Part shown: in pieces, positions 763 through 62,988 of the stretch
Position numbering within the stretch: the stretch's first letter is position 1
Layout: each line of letters begins with the position of its first letter
Source: Thiohalobacter sp. IOR34
GTDB taxonomy: Bacteria > Pseudomonadota > Gammaproteobacteria > Thiohalobacterales > Thiohalobacteraceae
DNA: 64,000 bases
Assembly: GCF_030406045.1 (NCBI RefSeq)
Contig: NZ_CP128988.1
Span: forward strand, 1,337,438-1,401,437
Direction: 5' to 3'
The notes under the pieces: generated by a model
What the model was told of the DNA's origin: nothing
The model's database searches: none
The model's input: only the letters and a program-made list of their open reading frames with translations
Translations under genes and position numbers: made by a program

Positions 763-1890
763 ATGCACACCCACCTCTGCCTCGTCTCTGCCCAGCCGCT
801 GCCCAACCTCGTGCCCCTGATCGATCCCACCCTTGACGTGAAACGGGCCGTGCTCGCCGTGACTACGGACATGACCGAGCGCGCCGACTGGTTGGAGGCG
901 GTGCTGCGCCCGCGCGGCATTCGTGTCGAACGTCTGGAGCTGGGGGATGCCTGGGACTACGATCAGACCCAGAGCCGCATCCTTGAATGGCTCGAGCGGG
1001 AAGGGGGGGAAGGCATTGCCCTCAATGTCACCGGCGGCACCAAGCTCATGAGTATCGCCGCCTATGAAAGTTTCCGTGCCTATGACCTGCCGATATTCTA
1101 CGTCCACCCCGAACAGGACAGATTGATATGGATGAATCCGGATGATCGGGGATCCATTGATCTTGCCGACCGTGTGAAGCTCGAACCCTTTCTCCAGGCT
1201 CATGGCGCAGCGCTGCAATTGGAACCTAAACGCAACGTTCCCGAACCCGGGCGACTGGACCTGGCCGAAGAGATCGTACTTGGTCTGGACAAGTTCACCA
1301 GGATCCTGCCCAGGTTCAACTGGCTTGCCGTCGGAGCCGAGAAAACCCTGGTATCCAAGCCCCTGGAAAACGACCGGGGCGAACTGGCGGAGCTGATAGA
1401 TCTGTTCGAGGCGGCGGGTTGCCTCCGCCGCGCGAACGGCCGGCTGCGGTTCCCTGGTGAGAAGGAGCGATTCTTCGCAGCCGGCGGATGGTTGGAAATC
1501 CTCGTGTTCGATGCGGTACGGCGATTGCGCAAAGCTCGTCCGGGTATCCAGGATGTCGCTTATTCCATTCCGGTGGTGCGGGAGCAGCGGGGAAAACGCG
1601 TGCCCAACGAACTCGATGTGGCTTTTCTGTGCAACAACCGCTTGCATATCATCGAATGCAAGACACGCCAGTTCAAGGGAGAAGGCGAGGACAATGATAG
1701 CGCTCAGGCCCTGTACAAGCTGGATACGCTGCGCGACCTCATGGGTGGGCTACAGGCGCGAGCCATGCTGGTAAGCTACCAGGACTTGGAGCCGCATGAC
1801 CGGACCCGTGCCGCCGACCTCAATATTGCGGTATGTGCAGGCGCGCAGCTTCGAAACCTGCGCGCAAGTATCGGGGATTTCATGTCGTGA
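763..1890 (+). CDS. card1: Card1/Can2-like CARF nuclease of type III CRISPR
   Basis: A 375-residue protein, the same size as characterised Card1. The N-terminal CARF domain carries the nucleotide-binding loop NVTGGTKLMS (about residues 88-97). The C-terminal domain is a PD-(D/E)xK nuclease: E283 and D285 in NELDVAFL, then E298 and K300 in IIECKTRQF. Card1/Can2 enzymes are switched on by cyclic tetra-adenylate made by Cas10 and degrade single-stranded RNA and DNA or nick supercoiled DNA, slowing growth during phage infection; that activity is inferred from the family. It starts with ATG 2 bases after the HEPN-Csx16 gene and ends 208 bases before the first CRISPR repeat. The producing Cas10 is not in the window. 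Confidence 0.9.
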   Translation: MHTHLCLVSAQPLPNLVPLIDPTLDVKRAVLAVTTDMTERADWLEAVLRPRGIRVERLELGDAWDYDQTQSRILEWLEREGGEGIALNVTGGTKLMSIAAYESFRAYDLPIFYVHPEQDRLIWMNPDDRGSIDLADRVKLEPFLQAHGAALQLEPKRNVPEPGRLDLAEEIVLGLDKFTRILPRFNWLAVGAEKTLVSKPLENDRGELAELIDLFEAAGCLRRANGRLRFPGEKERFFAAGGWLEILVFDAVRRLRKARPGIQDVAYSIPVVREQRGKRVPNELDVAFLCNNRLHIIECKTRQFKGEGEDNDSAQALYKLDTLRDLMGGLQARAMLVSYQDLEPHDRTRAADLNIAVCAGAQLRNLRASIGDFMS

Positions 1891-2098
1891 ATAACTCTCG
1901 CATGAAAAAAATCCTGGTTGACACAGAGCGGTATGCTGGCATCCCTTTTACGGGAATGGGGTGTTTCACTCGCTGGAGGAATGTTGCTGATCTAGGCCCC
2001 GGAGTTCGTGTAATGATCGTGTCAACTTGTTGGCATGTCATGATTTCCATAAACCCGCATGTAACTGATTGGACAAAGGAGGAAAACAGCATTGAGCG
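1891..2098 (+). promoter_or_regulatory. CRISPR leader (putative)
   Basis: A 208-base non-coding stretch between the Card1 stop codon and the first repeat, more AT-rich than the flanking cas genes. It contains TTGACA at 1918-1923 as a possible -35 box, without a convincing -10 box at the right distance, and a strong Shine-Dalgarno-like AAAGGAGG at 2076-2083 just before the array. The position upstream of repeats whose 3' end (ATTAAGAC) looks like a crRNA 5' handle supports leader function. The alternative is that the array is read the other way, from the 78 bases before cas2; this is judged less likely. Confidence 0.6.
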
Positions 2099-3216
2099 GT
2101 TCGAGATAGAGACCTTATGAAGAAGGGATTAAGACTTCACAAGGGGCGGCCGGAGCGCGCACCATTCCTTGTTCGAGATAGAGACCTTATGAAGAAGGGA
2201 TTAAGACGCCGGAGCGCGCACCATTCCTTGTAGGAAATCGGTTCGAGATAGAGACCTTATGAAGAAGGGATTAAGACTCGGCCTCGGCCTTGGGCTTGTC
2301 GGCCGCGCGCGTTCGAGATAGAGACCTTATGAAGAAGGGATTAAGACCTTTTGCGCTGCGCTTCTTTCGATGCGCTCTTTTGTTCGAGATAGAGACCTTA
2401 TGAAGAAGGGATTAAGACCCAGCGCTGCCGCTGGCGTTCACCACCGGCGGAGTTCGAGATAGAGACCTTATGAAGAAGGGATTAAGACCCGTAGAGCCCC
2501 CGTTACCAAAGGCACCCCACAGTTCGAGATAGAGACCTTATGAAGAAGGGATTAAGACAGGCCGATCTCTCGCCATTCGGCGAGGGCTGCGTTCGAGATA
2601 GAGACCTTATGAAGAAGGGATTAAGACTCAGCGGCCGAGGCGGTGTCTACATCGAATGGTGTTCGAGATAGAGACCTTATGAAGAAGGGATTAAGACCGA
2701 GTCCACCATTGCTGGTGAACTCGTTCCACGCGTTCGAGATAGAGACCTTATGAAGAAGGGATTAAGACTGTCGGCCTTGTCGGCCTTGTCGGCCGCCCGC
2801 CGGTTCGAGATAGAGACCTTATGAAGAAGGGATTAAGACGCAGCTACGCGCCTCGATGTACCCCTCAACGAATGTTCGAGATAGAGACCTTATGAAGAAG
2901 GGATTAAGACGTCAAGGGTAAGGACCTCGCCAGCGGCTGAGGTTCGAGATAGAGACCTTATGAAGAAGGGATTAAGACGAGACCGCCCAAGAGATAACCC
3001 CTTCCACCGCATAGTTCGAGATAGAGACCTTATGAAGAAGGGATTAAGACCTTGGCCCATACGCTAAAAGCGTTTTGGGCCGTTTGTTCGAGATAGAGAC
3101 CTTATGAAGAAGGGATTAAGACGCGTAGCCTGCGGCGAACTCGCCGCGAAATTTCTGTTCGAGATAGAGACCTTATGAAGAAGGGATTATTGAGCCTTGC
3201 ATAAATGATGAACACA

Positions 3217-3789
3217 TCACAAAGGAAGCTCGGCCTGTTTCCAGAACGCGGTCACCAGTGTCTTCTGGCGTCGCTGCATGGAACGGAGCCTGCGCCGGGC
3301 ATAGTCACTCAATTCACCGATGTCCCTGGGACAGAAGTTACCCAGCTCATGCGGTTTGAGATGCCCGAACAGATATTCAACCGGGTTGAGCTCCGGCGAA
3401 TAGGCCGGCAGGAACTCGATCTGAATCTGCCCATTGCAATCCTCGACATACTGACGGACCAGGCGGCTCTTGTGGACCTGCAGGCCATCCCAGATGATCA
3501 GCAGCTTCCTGCCGATCTGGCGCTTGAGTGCCTTGAGGAACTCGATGCACTGGGGGGCACGGATCGTACCGGGGAACAGACGAAAGTAGAAACGCCAGAA
3601 GCTGACCCCGGCGATCACCGACAGCTGCTTCCAGGTGAAGCTGTACTGGATGACAGGCGTCTGTCCCTTCGGTGCCCAGGTGCGCACCAGTGTGGGCCGT
3701 TCCGACAGACCCGATTCATCGACAAACACGATCACACGCCCCTCTTTTGCAGCGTTTTTTTTAGTGCCGGCCAGCGCTTGGTCTTCCAC
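3217..3789 (-). CDS. IS630 transposase, catalytic DDE frame (OrfB)
   Basis: Carries the full DDE catalytic triad of IS630 transposases: D in VFVDESGLS, D in IIWDGLQVHKS, and E in YSPELNPVEYLF. It overlaps OrfA by 58 bases and is in the -1 frame relative to it, so a fused OrfAB of about 341 residues, the usual IS630 transposase length, would be made by -1 frameshifting. Independent initiation at ATG 3789 is possible but unlikely to give a functional DNA-binding enzyme. It is read toward the leader, opposite to the array. Confidence 0.9.
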   Translation of the reverse strand: MEDQALAGTKKNAAKEGRVIVFVDESGLSERPTLVRTWAPKGQTPVIQYSFTWKQLSVIAGVSFWRFYFRLFPGTIRAPQCIEFLKALKRQIGRKLLIIWDGLQVHKSRLVRQYVEDCNGQIQIEFLPAYSPELNPVEYLFGHLKPHELGNFCPRDIGELSDYARRRLRSMQRRQKTLVTAFWKQAELPL

Positions 3790-4220
3790 TCCCGCACCGC
3801 ACGCTCATCGCGCTGCAAGGCGCGCCGGGCCGGCCGCTGGCAGCTGAACCCCATGCGCCCCAGCACGCGGGAGACCTGCGACTCTGACAGCTGCACCCCG
3901 AACTGCTCGTCCAGCACCTTCCGCACACGCCCCAGGGTCCAGACCTCGGTGGCAAACCCGCTGGCCAGCGCGCCTTTCAACAGGATCCGCTTCAGCTCAC
4001 GCAGGTCGGCCTTGTCCAGCGAACCCGGACGGCCGCGCAGACCTGTCGACCGCAGCGCATCCAATCCGCCTTGTTCCAGGCGCCGGGCCCACCCGCAGAC
4101 CGTTGATCGGGCTACTCCCACGCGTCGCGCCACTTCCGCCTGGGGGACGCCTTTCAAGAGAAGGCGGCCGGCCCGCAGTCGCCGCTTCTCCAGCTCTTTG
4201 CATTGCGTCTTGCTGTCCAT
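3732..4220 (-). CDS. IS630 transposase, N-terminal frame (OrfA)
   Basis: A 162-residue protein with a helix-turn-helix region near the N-terminus (PQAEVARRVGVARSTVCGW, about residues 26-44) and a second winged-helix-like part containing LSESQVSRVLGRMGF. These are the DNA-binding modules that recognise IS630 inverted repeats. It lacks the catalytic domain, which is in the overlapping -1 frame. The stop codon is shortly after a run of eight A residues on the coding strand, a classical slippery site. It starts at ATG 4220 on the minus strand, 57 bases inside the inverted repeat. Confidence 0.88.
   Translation of the reverse strand: MDSKTQCKELEKRRLRAGRLLLKGVPQAEVARRVGVARSTVCGWARRLEQGGLDALRSTGLRGRPGSLDKADLRELKRILLKGALASGFATEVWTLGRVRKVLDEQFGVQLSESQVSRVLGRMGFSCQRPARRALQRDERAVREWKTKRWPALKKTLQKRGV
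3755..3762 (-). other. A8 slippery site for -1 frameshifting
   Basis: Eight T residues on the given strand read as A8 on the transposase strand, inside the OrfA/OrfB overlap. OrfA is read CTA AAA AAA ACG; slipping back one base gives AAC GCT and continues in OrfB. Such A-runs drive programmed frameshifting in several IS630-family elements; function here is inferred from position. Confidence 0.65.
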
Positions 4221-7060
4221 GGAATCCTCCCAACATACCCGATTCCATAGACAACGAAAACAGAATAATGTTCACTATTTATGCAAGGCTCAATAAGACG
4301 CGCCCTTGCAATCCCAAGGCCCAAGACGTCAGAGTTCGAGATAGAGACCTTATGAAGAAGGGATTAAGACAGTCATTATTGACCTAACTCGCCCTAAATT
4401 GGTTCGAGATAGAGACCTTATGAAGAAGGGATTAAGACTTCGGGTCGACTGGGCTATCCGGCACCAGATAGTTCGAGATAGAGACCTTATGAAGAAGGGA
4501 TTAAGACATATTGGATTTTTTTCATGTTTTTCTCCTCTGTTAGTTCGAGATAGAGACCTTATGAAGAAGGGATTAAGACTCATGAGGTGTGGCCGGAGAG
4601 ACATCCATTCTCTGTTCGAGATAGAGACCTTATGAAGAAGGGATTAAGACGCCGATCTTGCGGCCGACTGCTACGGCCGCGTGTTCGAGATAGAGACCTT
4701 ATGAAGAAGGGATTAAGACGCGCTCCATATCAGGCTCTGGTTCAGACAAGCGTTCGAGATAGAGACCTTATGAAGAAGGGATTAAGACGCGTCCGGCGAC
4801 GCCGACTTTTGGATCTCGACTACGTTCGAGATAGAGACCTTATGAAGAAGGGATTAAGACTCTTATTGACCAATCTACAAGCTGCTCTTGGAAGGTTCGA
4901 GATAGAGACCTTATGAAGAAGGGATTAAGACCCAGCGCGCGCGTTGCGCTTGCGCTGCGCCTCTGTTCGAGATAGAGACCTTATGAAGAAGGGATTAAGA
5001 CCAAGGCCGATCTCGCGCCATTCGGCGAGGGCTGTTCGAGATAGAGACCTTATGAAGAAGGGATTAAGACCGGCCTTGTCGGCCTTGTTGCCGTCGCCGG
5101 GCTTGTTCGAGATAGAGACCTTATGAAGAAGGGATTAAGACTCATTGAAGGTTATGACGTGGCCGGCCTTTGTGTTCGAGATAGAGACCTTATGAAGAAG
5201 GGATTAAGACGCGAATTCGCCGCGCAATTCCTTTGCGCGCTCCCGTTCGAGATAGAGACCTTATGAAGAAGGGATTAAGACCGATTCCTCAGCCTCTCGA
5301 AGAAGCTCATACGCGATGGGTTCGAGATAGAGACCTTATGAAGAAGGGATTAAGACACCACCGGCGGAGGCGCCTTGTCGGCCTTGTCGGGTTCGAGATA
5401 GAGACCTTATGAAGAAGGGATTAAGACCTCGGGCTGATCTCGGTATACCCTTTCATGAGGGTTCGAGATAGAGACCTTATGAAGAAGGGATTAAGACGGC
5501 CTTGAGGGCCGCCTTCTTGCTGTGATATACGGTTCGAGATAGAGACCTTATGAAGAAGGGATTAAGACCGCTATACATGGTTCTTTCTCCTGTGGTTTGT
5601 GTTCGAGATAGAGACCTTATGAAGAAGGGATTAAGACGCAGCATCAGGCCAGTTTTCCATCAGTCTTCGTTCGAGATAGAGACCTTATGAAGAAGGGATT
5701 AAGACGTCCATGTCGGACGCAGCCGAGAGGCCGGAGTGTTCGAGATAGAGACCTTATGAAGAAGGGATTAAGACCCACCAGGGGCATGTCCATGCACCCC
5801 TTGATGGCGTTCGAGATAGAGACCTTATGAAGAAGGGATTAAGACCGCTGCGTCCATGTCGGACGCAGCCGAGAGGCCGGAGTTCGAGATAGAGACCTTA
5901 TGAAGAAGGGATTAAGACCCTCGGATGCCCACCGAGCCCCGGCCATGGCCAGGGTTCGAGATAGAGACCTTATGAAGAAGGGATTAAGACGGCAGCGGGC
6001 TTCATAGCTCGATGATCTCTGCCGTGTTCGAGATAGAGACCTTATGAAGAAGGGATTAAGACGTGTATTCGCGGCCGTCTTCAATGGCGGCCGCGGGTTC
6101 GAGATAGAGACCTTATGAAGAAGGGATTAAGACTCAGCGGTCTCCAGGTACTCCCCAACGCCCCAGTTCGAGATAGAGACCTTATGAAGAAGGGATTAAG
6201 ACCCCATGGGCCGCCTCGGATGCCCACCGAGCCCCGGTTCGAGATAGAGACCTTATGAAGAAGGGATTAAGACGTTAGCATGTTATATGGGATTTTCATG
6301 GTCTTTTTGTTCGAGATAGAGACCTTATGAAGAAGGGATTAAGACCGCGGCTCCAGATGTAGTACACGGTCATGATGTGTTCGAGATAGAGACCTTATGA
6401 AGAAGGGATTAAGACGCGGGCGGGGGTCAGTGTCGATCATTCCTGCGTGTTCGAGATAGAGACCTTATGAAGAAGGGATTAAGACTCGGTGTTCATGATC
6501 TTACCCCTCTTGGTCTGTTGTTCGAGATAGAGACCTTATGAAGAAGGGATTAAGACCCCTTCCAGTCGACCGTCTTGCGGCAGCTCTCGAGTTCGAGATA
6601 GAGACCTTATGAAGAAGGGATTAAGACCACACACGGCCCGTCATTTCGTCGCTGACCTCGGTTCGAGATAGAGACCTTATGAAGAAGGGATTAAGACACA
6701 TCTTTGATGTCTCGTTCATCTACATCTCCTGTTCGAGATAGAGACCTTATGAAGAAGGGATTAAGACCAGGGCCAGGGAGATGCCCAACCAGACCGGTGG
6801 GTTCGAGATAGAGACCTTATGAAGAAGGGATTAAGACCCAGCGTCCACCGTCGCGGATGGCGTAGGTGTATTGTTCGAGATAGAGACCTTATGAAGAAGG
6901 GATTAAGACACCTCTTTGATGGTCATATTGCGCACCGTCACCTCTGTTCGAGATAGAGACCTTATGAAGAAGGGATTAAGACGGTTCACTCTCCTATTTG
7001 AATGGCATGGCAAGCTTGCCGTTTTCTCATCTTGCCTGACCTTGGTGTCAAGCTGTTCAC

Positions 7061-7345
7061 ATGCCGAAGCGGCAACTCTATCTGGTGGCTTATGATGTTT
7101 CCGATGCTAGGCGGCTGCGATGCATGCTCGGCGCGGTGAAGGCGCATGCTACCGGCGGGCAGAAATCGGTATTTGAGTGCTACCTCTCAGAAGTTGAACG
7201 GACAGGGTTGTTGCGAGAGGTCGGAGATATCCTGGATTTGGAGGAAGACCGTTTTTTCCTGATCCGCCTCGACCCCAGGTCGCGTGTGAGAACGCTTGGT
7301 CGGGCAGTGCCGGTGGCGGATCCAGACTTTTTCTATGTGGGTTGA
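7061..7345 (+). CDS. cas2: CRISPR-associated endoribonuclease/adaptation protein Cas2 (first copy)
   Basis: A 94-residue Cas2. The ferredoxin-like first strand and metal-binding Asp are in YLVAYDVSD (D12); the family motif KAHATGGQKSVFECYL and the C-terminal RLDPRSRVRTLG complete the fold. Cas2 forms the central dimer of the Cas1-Cas2 integrase. It starts 78 bases after the last repeat and no clear Shine-Dalgarno sequence is visible, so it may be translated from a transcript that reads through the array. The stop overlaps a possible TTG start of cas1. It belongs to a clearly different Cas2 subgroup from the second copy at 9112. Confidence 0.93.
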   Translation: MPKRQLYLVAYDVSDARRLRCMLGAVKAHATGGQKSVFECYLSEVERTGLLREVGDILDLEEDRFFLIRLDPRSRVRTLGRAVPVADPDFFYVG

Positions 7346-7368
7346 CGCGGCCGTTGGAGAAACGTGTC

Positions 7369-8316
7369 ATGGGCATGCTGTATGTGGATAGGAAAAATGT
7401 GGAACTGCGCCATGAGGGTGGCCGCATTCTGGTCTATGAGCAAGGCCGGTGTAGCGGTTCGGTACCCTTGGCGCAGTTGGAGGCTGTAGTGGTACAGGGC
7501 CATGCGCTGCTTGATACCGGCTTGCTTCGGGCACTTGCTGGAGCTGGGGTGGGTTTGCTGGTTCTTGATTCACGTCGACCGGAATTCACGTCAAGGTTAG
7601 AAGGGCGATCCCACAATCAGTCCAGCCGCCGGCTGGAACAGTATCGTCGTTCACTGGATGAAACATGGAGGGCGCGCTTCTCCAAGCTGTTAGTCAGGCG
7701 AAAGGTTCGCGAACAGCGGCGTCTGTTGGCCGAGGCGTTGTCGCGCCGCCCCGATTTGCGGAGATCTTTGCTATCGGCTGTGCGGGATCTGGATGCGAGG
7801 CTTTGTGAATTGGGTGAAGGCATGCCGTCACGCGAGCGTTTGCGTGGCCTGGAAGGGGTGGCAGCGCGCGACTATTTTCAGGGCTATTGTCGCCTTTTTC
7901 CACGTTCGGTCAATTTTACTGGACGCAATCGTCGGCCGCCTCGCGACCCGGTGAATGCGTGTCTGTCGCTTGCTTATACCCTTCTGCAGGCAGAGGCAGT
8001 GCGGGCGGTACAGGTTGCTGGTCTCGATCCCATGCTTGGCTTCTTTCATGATGTGGCATTTGGACGTGATTCATTGGCGTGCGATCTCGTTGAGCCTCTG
8101 AGGCCGAGTGTGGACCGCCTGGTCTGGGAGTTGTTCAGGATGAGGTCTCTGACCGCGGAACATTTCTCGTCGAGCGAAGGGGGGTGCCTCTTAGGGAAGG
8201 GAGGGCGGAGAATCTTCTATTCAGCATTCGAATCACAGATGCCGCCCATTCGCCGGAAGTTACGTAAATATGCACTGTTGCTGGCGCGTTCCCTCGAGGG
8301 GCGGGAGGATGCATGA
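7369..8316 (+). CDS. cas1: CRISPR integrase Cas1 (catalytically complete)
   Basis: 315 residues from ATG 7369, which has GGAGA ten bases upstream; a TTG at 7342 overlapping the cas2 stop is the alternative start. The N-terminal beta domain begins MLYVDRKNVELR. The C-terminal helical domain has the metal-binding triad E162 (LRGLEGVAARDYF), H227 (GFFHDVAFGR) and D239 (LACDLVEPLRP). Cas1 integrates new spacers at the leader end of the array together with Cas2. The stop overlaps the start of the Cas1-like gene by 4 bases, indicating translational coupling. Confidence 0.95.
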   Translation: MGMLYVDRKNVELRHEGGRILVYEQGRCSGSVPLAQLEAVVVQGHALLDTGLLRALAGAGVGLLVLDSRRPEFTSRLEGRSHNQSSRRLEQYRRSLDETWRARFSKLLVRRKVREQRRLLAEALSRRPDLRRSLLSAVRDLDARLCELGEGMPSRERLRGLEGVAARDYFQGYCRLFPRSVNFTGRNRRPPRDPVNACLSLAYTLLQAEAVRAVQVAGLDPMLGFFHDVAFGRDSLACDLVEPLRPSVDRLVWELFRMRSLTAEHFSSSEGGCLLGKGGRRIFYSAFESQMPPIRRKLRKYALLLARSLEGREDA

Positions 8317-9125
8317 GCAGGGTACTCTATCTCGATGGTGTCCGTTCCCTTCGGGTATTGCGGGATGGTCCTGCCTTGCGGGTATGCTGCCTTGGTGAGG
8401 CGGACCGGCTCTTTCCACTCGGGCGGTTGTCGCGGGTGGTAGTTCTGGGTCGCGTCGACTGGACGACGGATGCTTTGATGGCTTGCGCAGAAGAACATGT
8501 GGCGGTTGAGTTCCTGAGGCGTAATGGCACACCCAAGGCGCGCTTTTCATGTGTCTCCGATGAAGGCAAGCCGCTGGTGGAAATGGGTGTGCTGTTGGAC
8601 GAGTTGCTGGATGCTTCTGACGGCGACGAGCGTTATCACGCCTGGGTTGCAGGACAGGAGACGGCAGCTCGGCTGGCATTGAGGAATAGCAGTGACTGGT
8701 CTTCATGTCCGGTAGAGGCAGGAGCACTGCGCCGGATGCTTCGTCGGCGGGTTCTTCCATATGTACATGGTGTCGACCTGGATTGTTTCGACAGCCGTTT
8801 GAGGGGGTTGATCGTTGCTCTGTTGGACGGGTTGTTGCGGCGTTATGGTATTGATCCGGGGGCACCTTCGCTGACTGTTTCGGGGATCAATATAGCAGGT
8901 GATCTTGCAACGATTATTTTGTGGGAACTTGAACCCGGCAAGTTGACCTTCATCCGGCGTTTTGGCCGTTCAGCGCGCCGGCATACAGGTGGGAAGGCCA
9001 GGCTCCCGCTGTATTCCGCAGTGCGATTCTTCGAGGCACAGTCAGATGATATCTCGGAGAAATCGCAGAGATTACTGCGGCGCTTGCATTTGTTTCTCTT
9101 GGAGGCGCCGGGTGGCCGTTCGTGA
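8313..9125 (+). CDS. Degenerate Cas1 paralogue lacking catalytic residues
   Basis: 270 residues. The N-terminal domain is Cas1-like: VLYLDGVRSLRVL, then PLGRLSRVVVLGRVDWTTDALMACAEE and VAVEFLRRNG parallel the same positions in the upstream Cas1. The C-terminal part keeps a recognisable frame (GIDPGAPSLTVSGINIAGD, then LATIILWELEP aligning with LACDLVEPLRP) but has no counterpart of the catalytic Glu motif GLEG and no His in the FHD position; only the final Asp may remain. It should therefore be inactive as an integrase and could be a structural subunit, for example half of a Cas1-Cas1' heterodimer. It is coupled to cas1 by a 4-base overlap and overlaps cas2' by 14 bases. A divergent, unrelated fold is not fully excluded. 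Confidence 0.75.
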   Translation: MSRVLYLDGVRSLRVLRDGPALRVCCLGEADRLFPLGRLSRVVVLGRVDWTTDALMACAEEHVAVEFLRRNGTPKARFSCVSDEGKPLVEMGVLLDELLDASDGDERYHAWVAGQETAARLALRNSSDWSSCPVEAGALRRMLRRRVLPYVHGVDLDCFDSRLRGLIVALLDGLLRRYGIDPGAPSLTVSGINIAGDLATIILWELEPGKLTFIRRFGRSARRHTGGKARLPLYSAVRFFEAQSDDISEKSQRLLRRLHLFLLEAPGGRS

Positions 9126-9429
9126 GTCCCGTTTCTATCTTGTGTGCTACGACATCAGCGATCCGAGGCGCCTTGCTCGCCTGCATCGATACCTGTCGGC
9201 AAGGGCCGTTCCGGTGCAATATTCCGTGTTCATCCTTTGGGCAGATAGCGTAAAGGTCGATGCGTTGGTGAGGGAAATCCTCGAAATTATAAATCCCAGA
9301 GAGGACGACGTGCGTGTTTACCCGCTACCTAGGCAGATCGAGCTGGAAACCTTGGGACGCCGCGGACTACCAGAGGGTTTATTGCTGACTGGTGTCTCCG
9401 GTGCGCCGCTGCCCTTGCTGGAGGCATAA
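9112..9429 (+). CDS. cas2: Second CRISPR-associated Cas2
   Basis: 105 residues starting at GTG 9112, inside the end of the Cas1-like gene. The Cas2 fold is evident from FYLVCYDISDPRRLARLHRYL (metal-binding D14), VPVQYSVFIL, and REDDVRVYPLP with a late TLGRRGLPEG segment. It resembles the Cas2 subgroup found in other type I/III loci rather than the first copy (YSVF versus QKSVFECYL). A short tail after the usual end, SGAPLPLLEA, is of unknown role. It is the last gene of the adaptation operon. Two Cas2 lineages in one operon suggest either heteromeric or alternative integrase complexes. Confidence 0.92.
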   Translation: MAVRESRFYLVCYDISDPRRLARLHRYLSARAVPVQYSVFILWADSVKVDALVREILEIINPREDDVRVYPLPRQIELETLGRRGLPEGLLLTGVSGAPLPLLEA

Positions 9430-9577: not shown

Positions 9578-9599
9578 CCGAATGCGGTTCGGCATTCGG
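9578..9599 (+). promoter_or_regulatory. Hairpin in the mer leader
   Basis: Perfect 8-bp stem CCGAATGC/GCATTCGG around the loop GGTTCG, between the mer promoter and the merT start. No T-run follows, so it is not an intrinsic terminator; an mRNA-stability role is possible. Confidence 0.45.
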
Positions 9600-9626
9600 T
9601 GTTCCGAGGTGAGCAGGAGATGTGCC

Positions 9627-9986
9627 ATGGCCGACGACTTGTCCCCCGGTCCCAACCGCCCGCTGATTGCCGCTGCGCTGGCCGCTGTCGGTGCCTCGCT
9701 GTGCTGTGTTGCGCCCCTGTTGCTGGTGGCGTTGGGGGTCGGCGGCGCCTGGCTTGGAAGCCTCACCGCGCTGGAGCCCTACCGGCCGATCTTTATCGGC
9801 GGGGTTCTGCTGTTCCTGGGACTGGCCTTCCGACGGCTGTACCTGCTGCCTGCTGCCTGTTCGCCGGGCGAGGCCTGTGCGCTTCCGCGCGTGCGGCGTA
9901 ACCAGCGCCGTGTCTTCTGGCTGGCAAGCCTGCTGTTGCTGGCGCTGCTCGCCTTTCCCTATTACGCCTCGCTGCTTTTTGGTTGA
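9627..9986 (+). CDS. merT: Mercuric ion transporter MerT
   Basis: 119 residues from ATG 9627, with GCAGGAGA just upstream; an in-frame ATG further upstream gives an extension without support. Three hydrophobic segments are visible. The first carries the Hg(II)-binding pair C26-C27 (GASLCCVAPLLL); a second pair, C78 and C84 (ACSPGEACA), lies in the cytoplasmic loop as in classical MerT. It moves Hg(II) from periplasmic MerP through the inner membrane to MerA. It is the first gene of merT-merP-merA, directly behind the MerR-type promoter. Confidence 0.95.
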   Translation: MADDLSPGPNRPLIAAALAAVGASLCCVAPLLLVALGVGGAWLGSLTALEPYRPIFIGGVLLFLGLAFRRLYLLPAACSPGEACALPRVRRNQRRVFWLASLLLLALLAFPYYASLLFG

Positions 9987-9997
9987 GGCGCGAGTGA

Positions 9998-11764
<1,767 letters not shown>

Positions 11765-15070: not shown

Positions 15071-15947
15071 GTGCCAGCGGGCTTTGCCCGCGACGCCGCT
15101 CAAGGCGCGCGTATCCACTAACTCTGTAGGAGCGGCCACCAGGCCGCGATGCGGGCTCACCGCCGAATCGCGTCAAGGCGCGCGTATCCACTAACTCTGT
15201 AGGAGCGGCCACCAGGCCGCGATGCGGGCTCACCGCCGAATCGCGGCGTGGACGCCGCTCCTACACGGGCAGCCCGGTCACGCTGGTGGAGGCAGCCATG
15301 TTGACGCGACCCCGCTCAGGGCGCGGGTACCCGCTGACTGTAGGAGCGGCCACCAGGCCGCGATGGGATCTCACCGCCGAATCGCGGCGTGGACGCCGCT
15401 CCTGCACGTGTAGCCCGGCCAGGGTGGAGGCAGCCATGTTGACGCGACCCCGCTCAGGGTACGGGTACCCGCTGACTGTAGGAGCGGCCACCAGGCCGCG
15501 ATGGGAGCTCACCGCCGAATCGCGGCGTGGACGCCGCTCCTACACGGGCAGCCCGGTCACGCTGGTGGAGGCAGCCATGTTGACGCGACCCCGTTCAGGG
15601 TACGGGTACCCGCTGACTGTAGGAGCGGCCACCAGGCCGCGATGCGGGCTCACCGCCGAATCGCGGCGTGGACGCCGCTCCTACACGGGCAGCCCGGTCA
15701 CGCTGGTGGAGGCAGTCATGTTGACGCGACCCCGCTCAGGGTACGGGTAGCCGCTGACTGTAGGAGCGGCCACCAGGCCGCGATGGGAGCTCACCGCCGA
15801 ATCGCGGCGTGGACGCCGCTCCTACACGGGCAGCCTTGCCAGGCTGGAGGCAGCCATGTTGACGCGACGCCGCTCAGGGCACGCGTAGCCGCTGACTCTG
15901 TAGGAGCGGCCACCAGGCCGCGATGCGGGCTCACCGCCGAATCCCGG
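15071..15947. repeat. REP tandem array with a period near 140 bp
   Basis: About four full and two partial units. Each contains a forward REP (GTAGGAGCGGCCACCAGG...) and an inverted partner (CGCGGCGTGGACGCCGC...) followed by a linker with TTGACGCGACCCCGCTCAGG. Linker copies begin at 15301, 15439, 15580, 15721 and 15859, spacings 138-141. The array fills the mtnA-gyrA gap. Open frames through it repeat the same peptides and are not genes. Confidence 0.92.
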
Positions 15948-30663: not shown

Positions 30664-31392
30664 ATGGTGAACAACGACCCGAAGGTGATAGTGGCGCTGG
30701 ATTTTGCGACGGCCCGGGAGGCTGAGGCGCTGGTCGAACGGCTGGACCCCGCGCTGTGCCGGCTGAAGGTCGGCAAGGAGCTGTTCACACGCAGCGGGCC
30801 GGCGCTGGTCGAGTCGCTGGCCGGGCGTGGCTTCGATGTCTTTCTCGATCTGAAGTTTCACGACATCCCCAATACCGTGGCCCGCGCCTGTGCCGCCGCG
30901 GCCGATCTCGGGGTGTGGATGGTCAATGTGCACTGCCTCGGCGGGCGGCGGATGATGGCCGCGGCGCGGGAGGCGCTCGATCAGGCTGCGGGGCGTCGGC
31001 CGCTGCTGATCGGGGTGACCATCCTCACCAGCATGGGGCCGGAGGATCTCGCCGAGATCGGTCTGAGCGACGATCCTGCGGCCCAAGTGCGCCGCCTGGC
31101 TGAACTGGCCCGACAGGCCGGCCTGGACGGTGTGGTCTGCTCGCCGCAGGAGGCCGGCATGCTGCGCGAGGCGCTGGGCGATGATTTCCTGCTGGTGACG
31201 CCCGGGGTACGGCCAGCCGGGAGCGAGAAGGGCGACCAGCGCCGGGTGATGACCCCGGCCGATGCCTTGGCGGCCGGCTCCGACTACCTGGTGATCGGCC
31301 GACCTGTGACCCGCGCAACGGATCCGATTGCCGCCCTGGAGACGATCAACCGTGAACTGGCGGACGCCACCCGCCCTGTACCCCATCCGTAG
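30664..31392 (+). CDS. pyrF: Orotidine 5'-phosphate decarboxylase
   Basis: 242 residues. [14 protein letters not shown] near the N-terminus, the catalytic [16 protein letters not shown] (Lys and Asp), [13 protein letters not shown] and the phosphate-gripping [13 protein letters not shown] and [15 protein letters not shown] complete an OMP decarboxylase barrel. It makes UMP. The last codons run into a REP element and the stop codon TAG (31390-31392) is part of GTAGGAGCGG, so the natural C-terminus may have been altered by repeat insertion. Confidence 0.97.
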
Positions 31393-31784
31393 GAGCGGCC
31401 TCCAGGCCGCGATCAGACAACGAGCCCCCGCCAGCCCCGTCGTAGGAGCGGCCTCCAGGCCGCGATCAGACAACCCAGCCCCCGCCGCGCCCCCCCGTAG
31501 GAGCGGCCTCCAGGCCGCGATCAGACACGCAGCCCCGCCGCGCCCCCTCGTAGGAGCGGCCTCCAGGCCGCGATCAGACACGCAGCCCCCGCGCCCCCTC
31601 GTAGGAGCGGCCTCCAGGCCGCGATCAGACCGCAGCCCCCGCATCCCTTCGTAGGAGCGGCCTCCAGGCCGCGATCAAGACAACCCAGCCCCGCCGCGTC
31701 CCCTCGTAGGAGCGGCCTCCAGGCCGCGATCAGACACGCAGCCCCCGCCAGCCCCCTCGTAGGACCGGCCTCCAGGCCGCGATC
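31389..31784. repeat. REP tandem array, eight copies, period 50-55 bp
   Basis: Eight direct copies of the 26-base element (core GTAGGAGCGGCCTCCAGG) beginning at 31389, 31442, 31497, 31550, 31601, 31651, 31706 and 31759, separated by C-rich linkers such as CAGACACGCAGCCCC. All are in the same orientation, unlike the paired copies elsewhere. The last has one substitution (GGACCGG). The first overlaps the pyrF stop codon. Nothing else is seen in this 500-base gap apart from the upstream region of the next gene. Confidence 0.95.
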
Positions 31785-62543: not shown

Positions 62544-62975
62544 GATCGCGGCCTGGAGGCCGCTCCTACACCAACCCTTGCCGCCATGCCCGTGGGCGCG
62601 GTTTCCAGGCCGCGATGACCGCGCCGCCATGCCCCGTAGGAGCGGTCTCCAAGCCGCGACGACCCGTGCCGCCATGCCCCGTAGGAGCGGTCTCCAGGCC
62701 GCGATGACCGCGCCGCCATGCCCCGTAGGAGCGGTCTCCAGGCCGCGACGACCCGTGCCGCCATGCCTCGTAGGAGCGGTCTCCAGGCCGCGACGATCCG
62801 TGCCGCCATGCCCCGTGGGCGCGGTCTCCAGGCCGCGATGACCCGTGCCGCCATGCCCCGTGGGCGCGGTCTCCAGGCCGCGATGACCCGTGCCGCCATG
62901 CCCCGTGGGCGCGGTCTCCAGGCCGCGATGACCCGTGCCGCCATGCCTCGTAGGAGCGGTCTCCAGGCCGCGATG
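62544..62975. repeat. REP tandem array, 45-bp period
   Basis: One inverted REP (62544-62569) followed by nine direct copies starting at 62591, 62636, 62681, 62725, 62770, 62815, 62860, 62905 and 62950. Unit: GTAGGAGCGGTCTCCAGG (or GTGGGCGCGG...) plus CCGCGATGACCCGTGCCGCC. Two subtypes, GTAGGAGC and GTGGGCGC, occur in blocks, showing recent amplification. It fills the tRNA-Asn to aminotransferase gap. Confidence 0.95.
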
Positions 62976-62988
62976 AGCGTCATCGCCT

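Follow-up and report, generated by a model that had tools for sequence, protein, structure and literature searches.

Do two Cas1-type and two Cas2 proteins encoded side by side build one CRISPR integrase, or does the second pair serve another end? We asked this question for a locus of Thiohalobacter sp. IOR34 in which four adaptation genes follow a CRISPR array. The window is the whole stretch of 64,000 nucleotides analysed here (contig NZ_CP128988.1, positions 1,337,438 to 1,401,437), and coordinates are those of the window unless a locus is named.

The four genes and their type III setting

The array and the genes around it are arranged as follows.

763..1890, plus strand: Card1/Can2-like CARF-PD-(D/E)XK effector, a type III accessory protein (Pfam Card1_endonuc 117.7 bits, CARF_Card1 55 bits)
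1891..2098, plus strand: probable CRISPR leader, 208 nt from the Card1 stop codon to the first repeat
2099..6982, plus strand: CRISPR array, 54 copies of the 37-nt repeat GTTCGAGATAGAGACCTTATGAAGAAGGGATTAAGAC and 52 spacers
7061..7345, plus strand: cas2a, Cas2 of the GGQKS subgroup, 94 aa (Pfam Cas2 44.2 bits)
7369..8316, plus strand: cas1, catalytically complete Cas1, 315 aa from ATG 7369 (Pfam Cas1 243 bits, full length)
8313..9125, plus strand: cas1', diverged Cas1 without the catalytic set, 270 aa (PADLOC PDLC01185)
9112..9429, plus strand: cas2', second Cas2, 105 aa, GTG start (Pfam Cas2 59.9 bits)

The Pfam and PADLOC matches bore out the initial annotation, which had read the four genes as a Cas2, an intact Cas1, a Cas1-like paralogue and a second Cas2. 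For Cas1' the match to Pfam Cas1 was 28.5 bits and covered residues 17-80 only; PDLC01185 matched residues 5-206 (33 bits, E 1.2e-8), with the gene directly downstream of cas1. Cas1 consisted of the Cas1 domain alone, with no RT or Cas6 fusion in its 315 aa (Pfam, NCBIfam). Searches of the complete 2.96-Mb genome found no additional cas1 or cas2 elsewhere.

The listed cas1 reading frame begins with TTG at 7342. Since the N-terminus of the Cas1 family reads M-[GS]-T-L-Y-L-D-R and its counterpart in the window, MGMLYVDR, begins at ATG 7369, we placed the start at this ATG, which leaves a gap of about 23 bases between cas2a and cas1. The gene overlaps described earlier thus held for cas1/cas1' (4 nt) and cas1'/cas2' (14 nt) and not for the first two genes.

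Directly upstream of the window lie cas6 and the genes for a CARF protein, Cas10b, Cmr3, Cmr4, Cmr5 and Cmr6, a type III-B set. PADLOC matched all five of Cas10b/Cmr2, Cmr3, Cmr4, Cmr5 and Cmr6 in the locus from the window genome (L003), and a 375-aa reading frame at the place of Cmr1 (L003 5960-7087) had no PADLOC match at 1e-8. The Card1-like protein matched PADLOC CARF_PDDEXK with 394.8 bits. The segment between it and the array is probably the leader, judged by the repeat orientation and its position. The 3' motif of the repeat occurs 53 times in the genome, every time within this array, and the spacers are 31-38 nt long, mostly 32-35 nt.

An insertion at 3194-4333, which contains transposase-like reading frames (3217-3789 and 3732-4220, minus strand, in two overlapping frames), splits the array, and the repeat just ahead of it, at 3157, has four mismatches. 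Among the spacers (2136-6945) are several with mutually overlapping sequences and many with inverted repeats. Unusually hairpin-rich spacers were considered as a trait of the module and dropped, the effect being weak against control arrays: the mean folding-energy excess over dinucleotide shuffles was -0.53 ± 0.08 kcal/mol in four-gene arrays and -0.22 ± 0.11 kcal/mol in other CRISPR loci, with an excess over shuffles of -1.26 kcal/mol in the window array. When 19 spacers of the window were compared with the host genome outside the array, no match was found. Approximately 40 of the 52 spacers gave no usable protospacer in phage records, nor did the array spacers of two relatives.

Directly downstream of cas2', at 9582-11764, follows a likely mercury-resistance set with MerT-, MerP- and MerA-like reading frames, recognised by eye from their translations. 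Further along, a palindromic unit around GTAGGAGCGGCC...GGCCGCGAT is repeated in tandem at 15100-15947, 31388-31784 and 62574-62976; the unit is also found in scattered copies (11866, 13765) and looks like a REP-type element.

Recurrence and ancestry of the four-gene order

A search with the PDLC01185 profile matched 24 of 369 genomes in a class sample and 8 of 398 in a phylum sample, some of the weak matches being ordinary Cas1. More than 20 of the regions around these matches showed the four genes in identical order, and other module members scored up to 252 bits against the profile. A single-protein search of the genome contig collection with Cas1' gave no match because the family is too diverged, a difficulty which a profile built from 24 Cas2a proteins overcame. 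Run on the GTDB genome collection, this profile found Cas2a relatives at 281 loci, from which the best 80 were fetched. The order cas2a-cas1-cas1'-cas2' on one strand was present in 69 of these best 80 of 281 loci, or in 69 of the 73 that were not cut by a contig end. Among the other 11, seven were cut by contig ends, L090 was without cas1', L117 contained a cas1' remnant, and L126 and L085 were truncated or deleted. The recurrence of one order in 69 of the 80 fetched loci is far beyond chance.

According to record and tree labels the hosts belong to Pseudomonadota, Acidobacteriota and Nitrospirota, so that the search for the gene order proposed with the initial annotation found it in three phyla. 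IMG/VR viral contigs yielded no relatives, and a search of plasmids with Cas1' yielded none either. On a plasmid of Sphaerotilus sulfidivorans (L153, NZ_CP035707.1) the order is cas2a-cas1-cas2', without cas1'. There the three-gene module adjoins the BREX genes pglW and pglX, and no effector genes are annotated within the 23 kb shown.

Many of the loci have type III-B genes as neighbours, three have III-A genes (L118, L119, L127) and one has III-D genes (L151). The repeats of 35 analysed arrays share a common 3' end, in which GGGATT is invariant and AAGAC nearly so. From these neighbours and the conserved repeat end we concluded that the module is an adaptation cassette which has been joined to type III effectors of several kinds. 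Its four genes are passed on together in a fixed order, accompanied by a characteristic repeat and by type III effectors. In Methylotuvimicrobium buryatense 5G (L141) a 721-aa CARF-ADA protein is encoded upstream of the module, at 828-2990 of that locus (PADLOC CARF_ADA, 845 bits).

In the trees, Cas2a formed a single clade with support of 100/100, and the Cas2' proteins grouped separately; L072, on a long branch, was placed with an outgroup sequence. Cas1' was likewise a single clade (100/100), the Cas1 proteins of the module formed a clade with 91/88 and 12 outside Cas1 proteins one with 99/98. These trees contain long branches and do not resolve the point at which Cas1' branches within the Cas1 tree. 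In them the Cas1, Cas1' and Cas2 lineages are old and separate, and the assignment of the two Cas2 proteins to different subgroups agrees with this, as they fall into separate, old groups.

The Cas1 proteins of the three loci L090, L117 and L153 nest within the four-gene Cas1 clade, which suggests that cas1' was most probably lost secondarily there. Both cas2 genes were kept. As these loci persist without cas1', Cas1 is probably able to pair with itself once Cas1' is gone.

Lost catalytic residues, constraint and predicted fold of Cas1'

Counted from ATG 7369, the catalytic residues E162, H227 and D239 are present in the first Cas1, which confirms its description as catalytically complete; together with E242 they were invariant in 69 aligned Cas1 proteins. 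In 89 loci with paired Cas1 and Cas1', the Cas1 carried E, H and D in all 89, and the position of E242 was E in 87 and D in 2. At the same 89 loci the Glu motif of Cas1' was missing throughout, the His aligned in 5 and an Asp in 68. Near-invariant in Cas1' are L5, Y6, L22, P35, R38, A54, C58, G72 and W111, all but W111 located in the N-terminal domain. In the loci L103 and L112, and by the same pattern in L150, cas1 contains an in-frame insertion of approximately 80-90 residues in mid-Cas1; in L103 and L112 it resembles a translated palindromic element with PPFSKGGWGG-type repeats.

The median dN/dS was 0.09 for Cas2a, 0.09 for Cas1, 0.18 for Cas1' and 0.14 for Cas2', calculated from close pairs which are not all independent. 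Cas2a was the most conserved of the four proteins, and Cas2' kept a strongly conserved core like that of an ordinary Cas2. Cas1' changes at about twice the rate of Cas1, but its median of 0.18 marks it as a fast-evolving and yet constrained protein, and thus not as a pseudogene. In a mirror-tree analysis the partial correlations of Cas1' were 0.26 with Cas2a, 0.17 with Cas1 and 0.16 with Cas2', and no single partner stands out.

An AlphaFold2 model of Cas1', built with 68 sequences, reached a mean pLDDT of 93.7 and a pTM of 0.89. In it a beta domain at the N-terminus is followed by a helical domain, and its best Foldseek matches in the PDB were Cas1 chains and a casposase. A sequence search of the PDB with Cas1', unlike this fold search, matched no Cas1. 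Cas1' is thus confidently predicted to retain the Cas1 fold, and the Cas1-like gene, whose kinship the initial annotation had left to be examined, is that of a true Cas1 homologue.

By Foldseek TM score the Cas1' model is closer to one of the two conformers found in asymmetric Cas1 dimers. For 5ds4 the scores were 0.63 and 0.54 with chains B and D against 0.45 and 0.42 with A and C; for 5vvl they were 0.62 and 0.58 with B and D against 0.42 with A; and for 2yzs 0.64 with A against 0.41 with B. In 5dqz the matching chains were B and C, resolved to 301 and 300 residues. Since the PAM-reading tail residues 287-291 belong to Cas1b (PMC6395717), the length of these chains suggests that the favoured conformer is probably the non-catalytic subunit. 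In a control, the model of the window Cas1 (pLDDT 92.1) gave a rigid fit to neither conformer, with an rmsd of at least 10 among the 50 best matches. The conformer argument for Cas1' is therefore suggestive and not decisive.

These results bear on the possibility that the second pair is a duplication relic, or that two loci were joined, without a present function. The high divergence of Cas1', whose family members share about 24% identity with the window protein, and its loss in a few loci would be in line with such a relic. Against it, the reading frames are open in the 89 paired loci of three phyla, the gene order is invariant, and both the median dN/dS of 0.18 and the predicted fold with its pLDDT of 93.7 point to a maintained protein. 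We consider a relic highly improbable. The initial annotation had named confinement to this strain with a decaying second pair as the outcome that would speak against it; the order was found across phyla, and the values of 0.18 for Cas1' and 0.14 for Cas2' argue that the second pair is not decaying.

A putative mixed integrase and related systems

In the integrase structures considered, the Cas2 dimer is made of identical chains, and the Cas1 chains around it, identical too, have two roles. Of each Cas1 dimer in E. coli just one subunit catalyses integration, and the Cas2 dimer is contacted by Cas1b and Cas1b' (PMC10011333, PMC6395717). A non-catalytic Cas1b has also been described in a Cas6-RT-Cas1-Cas2 complex (PMC8102632). 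Cas1' would fit such a non-catalytic place, as its fold is predicted to be kept, its N-terminal domain is the best conserved part and the catalytic set is gone. Most likely, in our analysis, Cas1' is a dedicated non-catalytic integrase subunit. The reading to which we incline, by a little, is that of a specialised type III adaptation cassette making one mixed integrase with Cas1' in the non-catalytic place.

In the most economical model Cas1 and Cas1' would pair as a heterodimer on a Cas2 core. Cas1' would permanently fill the Cas1b place, as the subunit that contacts Cas2, and Cas1 would perform both strand transfers. The likely gain is a division of labour, in which Cas1 could be optimised for chemistry and Cas1' for docking, handling of prespacer ends or choice of target. 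With less confidence we suggest that the central core is made up of Cas2a and Cas2' together, for an overall composition of (Cas1-Cas1')2 on Cas2a-Cas2'. Such a core is plausible and would make the integrase lose its twofold symmetry; an influence on the orientation of spacers is plausible too.

The same four genes could also make two complexes, a working Cas1-Cas2a integrase and a second, catalytically dead assembly of Cas1' and Cas2', which would bind prespacers or leader DNA and serve as a loader, chaperone or brake. The pair cas1'-cas2' shows the usual cas1-cas2 order with tight overlaps of its own, and Cas2a, the most conserved of the four proteins, adjoins cas1, as two complexes would have it. 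However, cas2' was kept when cas1' was lost (L090, L117, L153), which is unexpected if Cas2' works only with Cas1', and its core is strongly conserved, as in an ordinary Cas2. As both Cas2 proteins are retained after the loss of Cas1', Cas2' seems to work for the integrase rather than for Cas1' alone. Two complexes are possible in our view, though on the unlikely side.

Alternatively Cas1' could act from outside the integrase core, handling or orienting prespacers as an accessory in the place of Cas4 or a DnaQ-type trimmer. An extra trimming gene is absent from the module (cas4 and RT not having been sought by profile in every locus), and the roughly twofold faster evolution of Cas1' would suit such a task. 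Yet no nuclease motif is recognised in Cas1', which has lost the catalytic residues of the parent fold. What it keeps is the N-terminal domain of Cas1, the domain of Cas1B to which the C-terminal strand of Cas2 binds in a related complex (PMC6620040). We regard the accessory role as improbable, and return to the mixed integrase for comparison with known systems.

The module and the E. coli type I-E (Cas1)4(Cas2)2 integrase have in common a Cas1 with Glu, His and Asp, the Cas2 fold and an array alongside. In E. coli one Cas1 per dimer is non-catalytic by position (PMC10011333), whereas the module has a gene of its own for a Cas1 devoid of the catalytic set, and a pair of Cas2 paralogues in place of a single Cas2. 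RT-Cas1 and Cas6-RT-Cas1 modules are likewise tied to type III effectors and have non-catalytic Cas1b positions (PMC8102632), but they carry an RT or Cas6 fusion, and the Cas1 of the window is an unfused protein of 315 aa. Cas4-Cas1-Cas2 and Cas1:Cas2-DEDDh, like the module, are a basic integrase with an addition; there the additions are nucleases, here they are paralogues of integrase subunits. The Antarctic contig MtG-4_NODE_208 (cas2-cas1-cas1-RT-csm3gr7-csm3gr7-csm3gr7-cas10; PMC11742911) resembles the module in having cas2 and then two cas1 beside type III effectors, and differs in that an RT is present and a second cas2 is not listed, the comparison being one of gene lists and not of sequences.

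No description of the four-gene module was found in open-access papers, subscription papers and supplements being outside the search. In the 2025 CRISPR classification (PMC12669027) 'second cas1' was absent and the matches to 'diverged cas1' were of the Cas10 and Cas11 type. Cas1' matches PADLOC PDLC01185, however, which carries the label 'Cas1, diverged variant, second in the loci' and shows that profile curators had already noticed Cas1'. This one-line label is silent on the two Cas2 proteins, the fixed order, the lost catalytic set and the mechanism. The initial annotation was aware of no characterised example, a claim of novelty that has to be narrowed insofar as a public profile for a second, diverged Cas1 is available.

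Type III systems need a single spacer orientation, because the crRNA must be antisense to the transcript. It is conceivable, though we hold it rather unlikely, that the four proteins form a four-subunit integrase, Cas1-Cas1' on Cas2a-Cas2', which is intrinsically polar and fixes spacer orientation or picks the substrate strand without PAM, Cas4 or RT. If true, it would be a hard-wired answer to the type III orientation problem. That a symmetric integrase must still insert spacers in one direction has been stated as a problem (PMC12259127).

Evolution seems to have split the two roles of Cas1 into two genes and to have doubled Cas2. With one gene removed at a time, catalysis, docking and orientation could be taken apart in what would be a natural separation-of-function system, for which the three-gene relatives may serve as controls. 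In culturable hosts, for instance Methylotuvimicrobium buryatense, RT-free spacer acquisition by type III systems could be studied as well.
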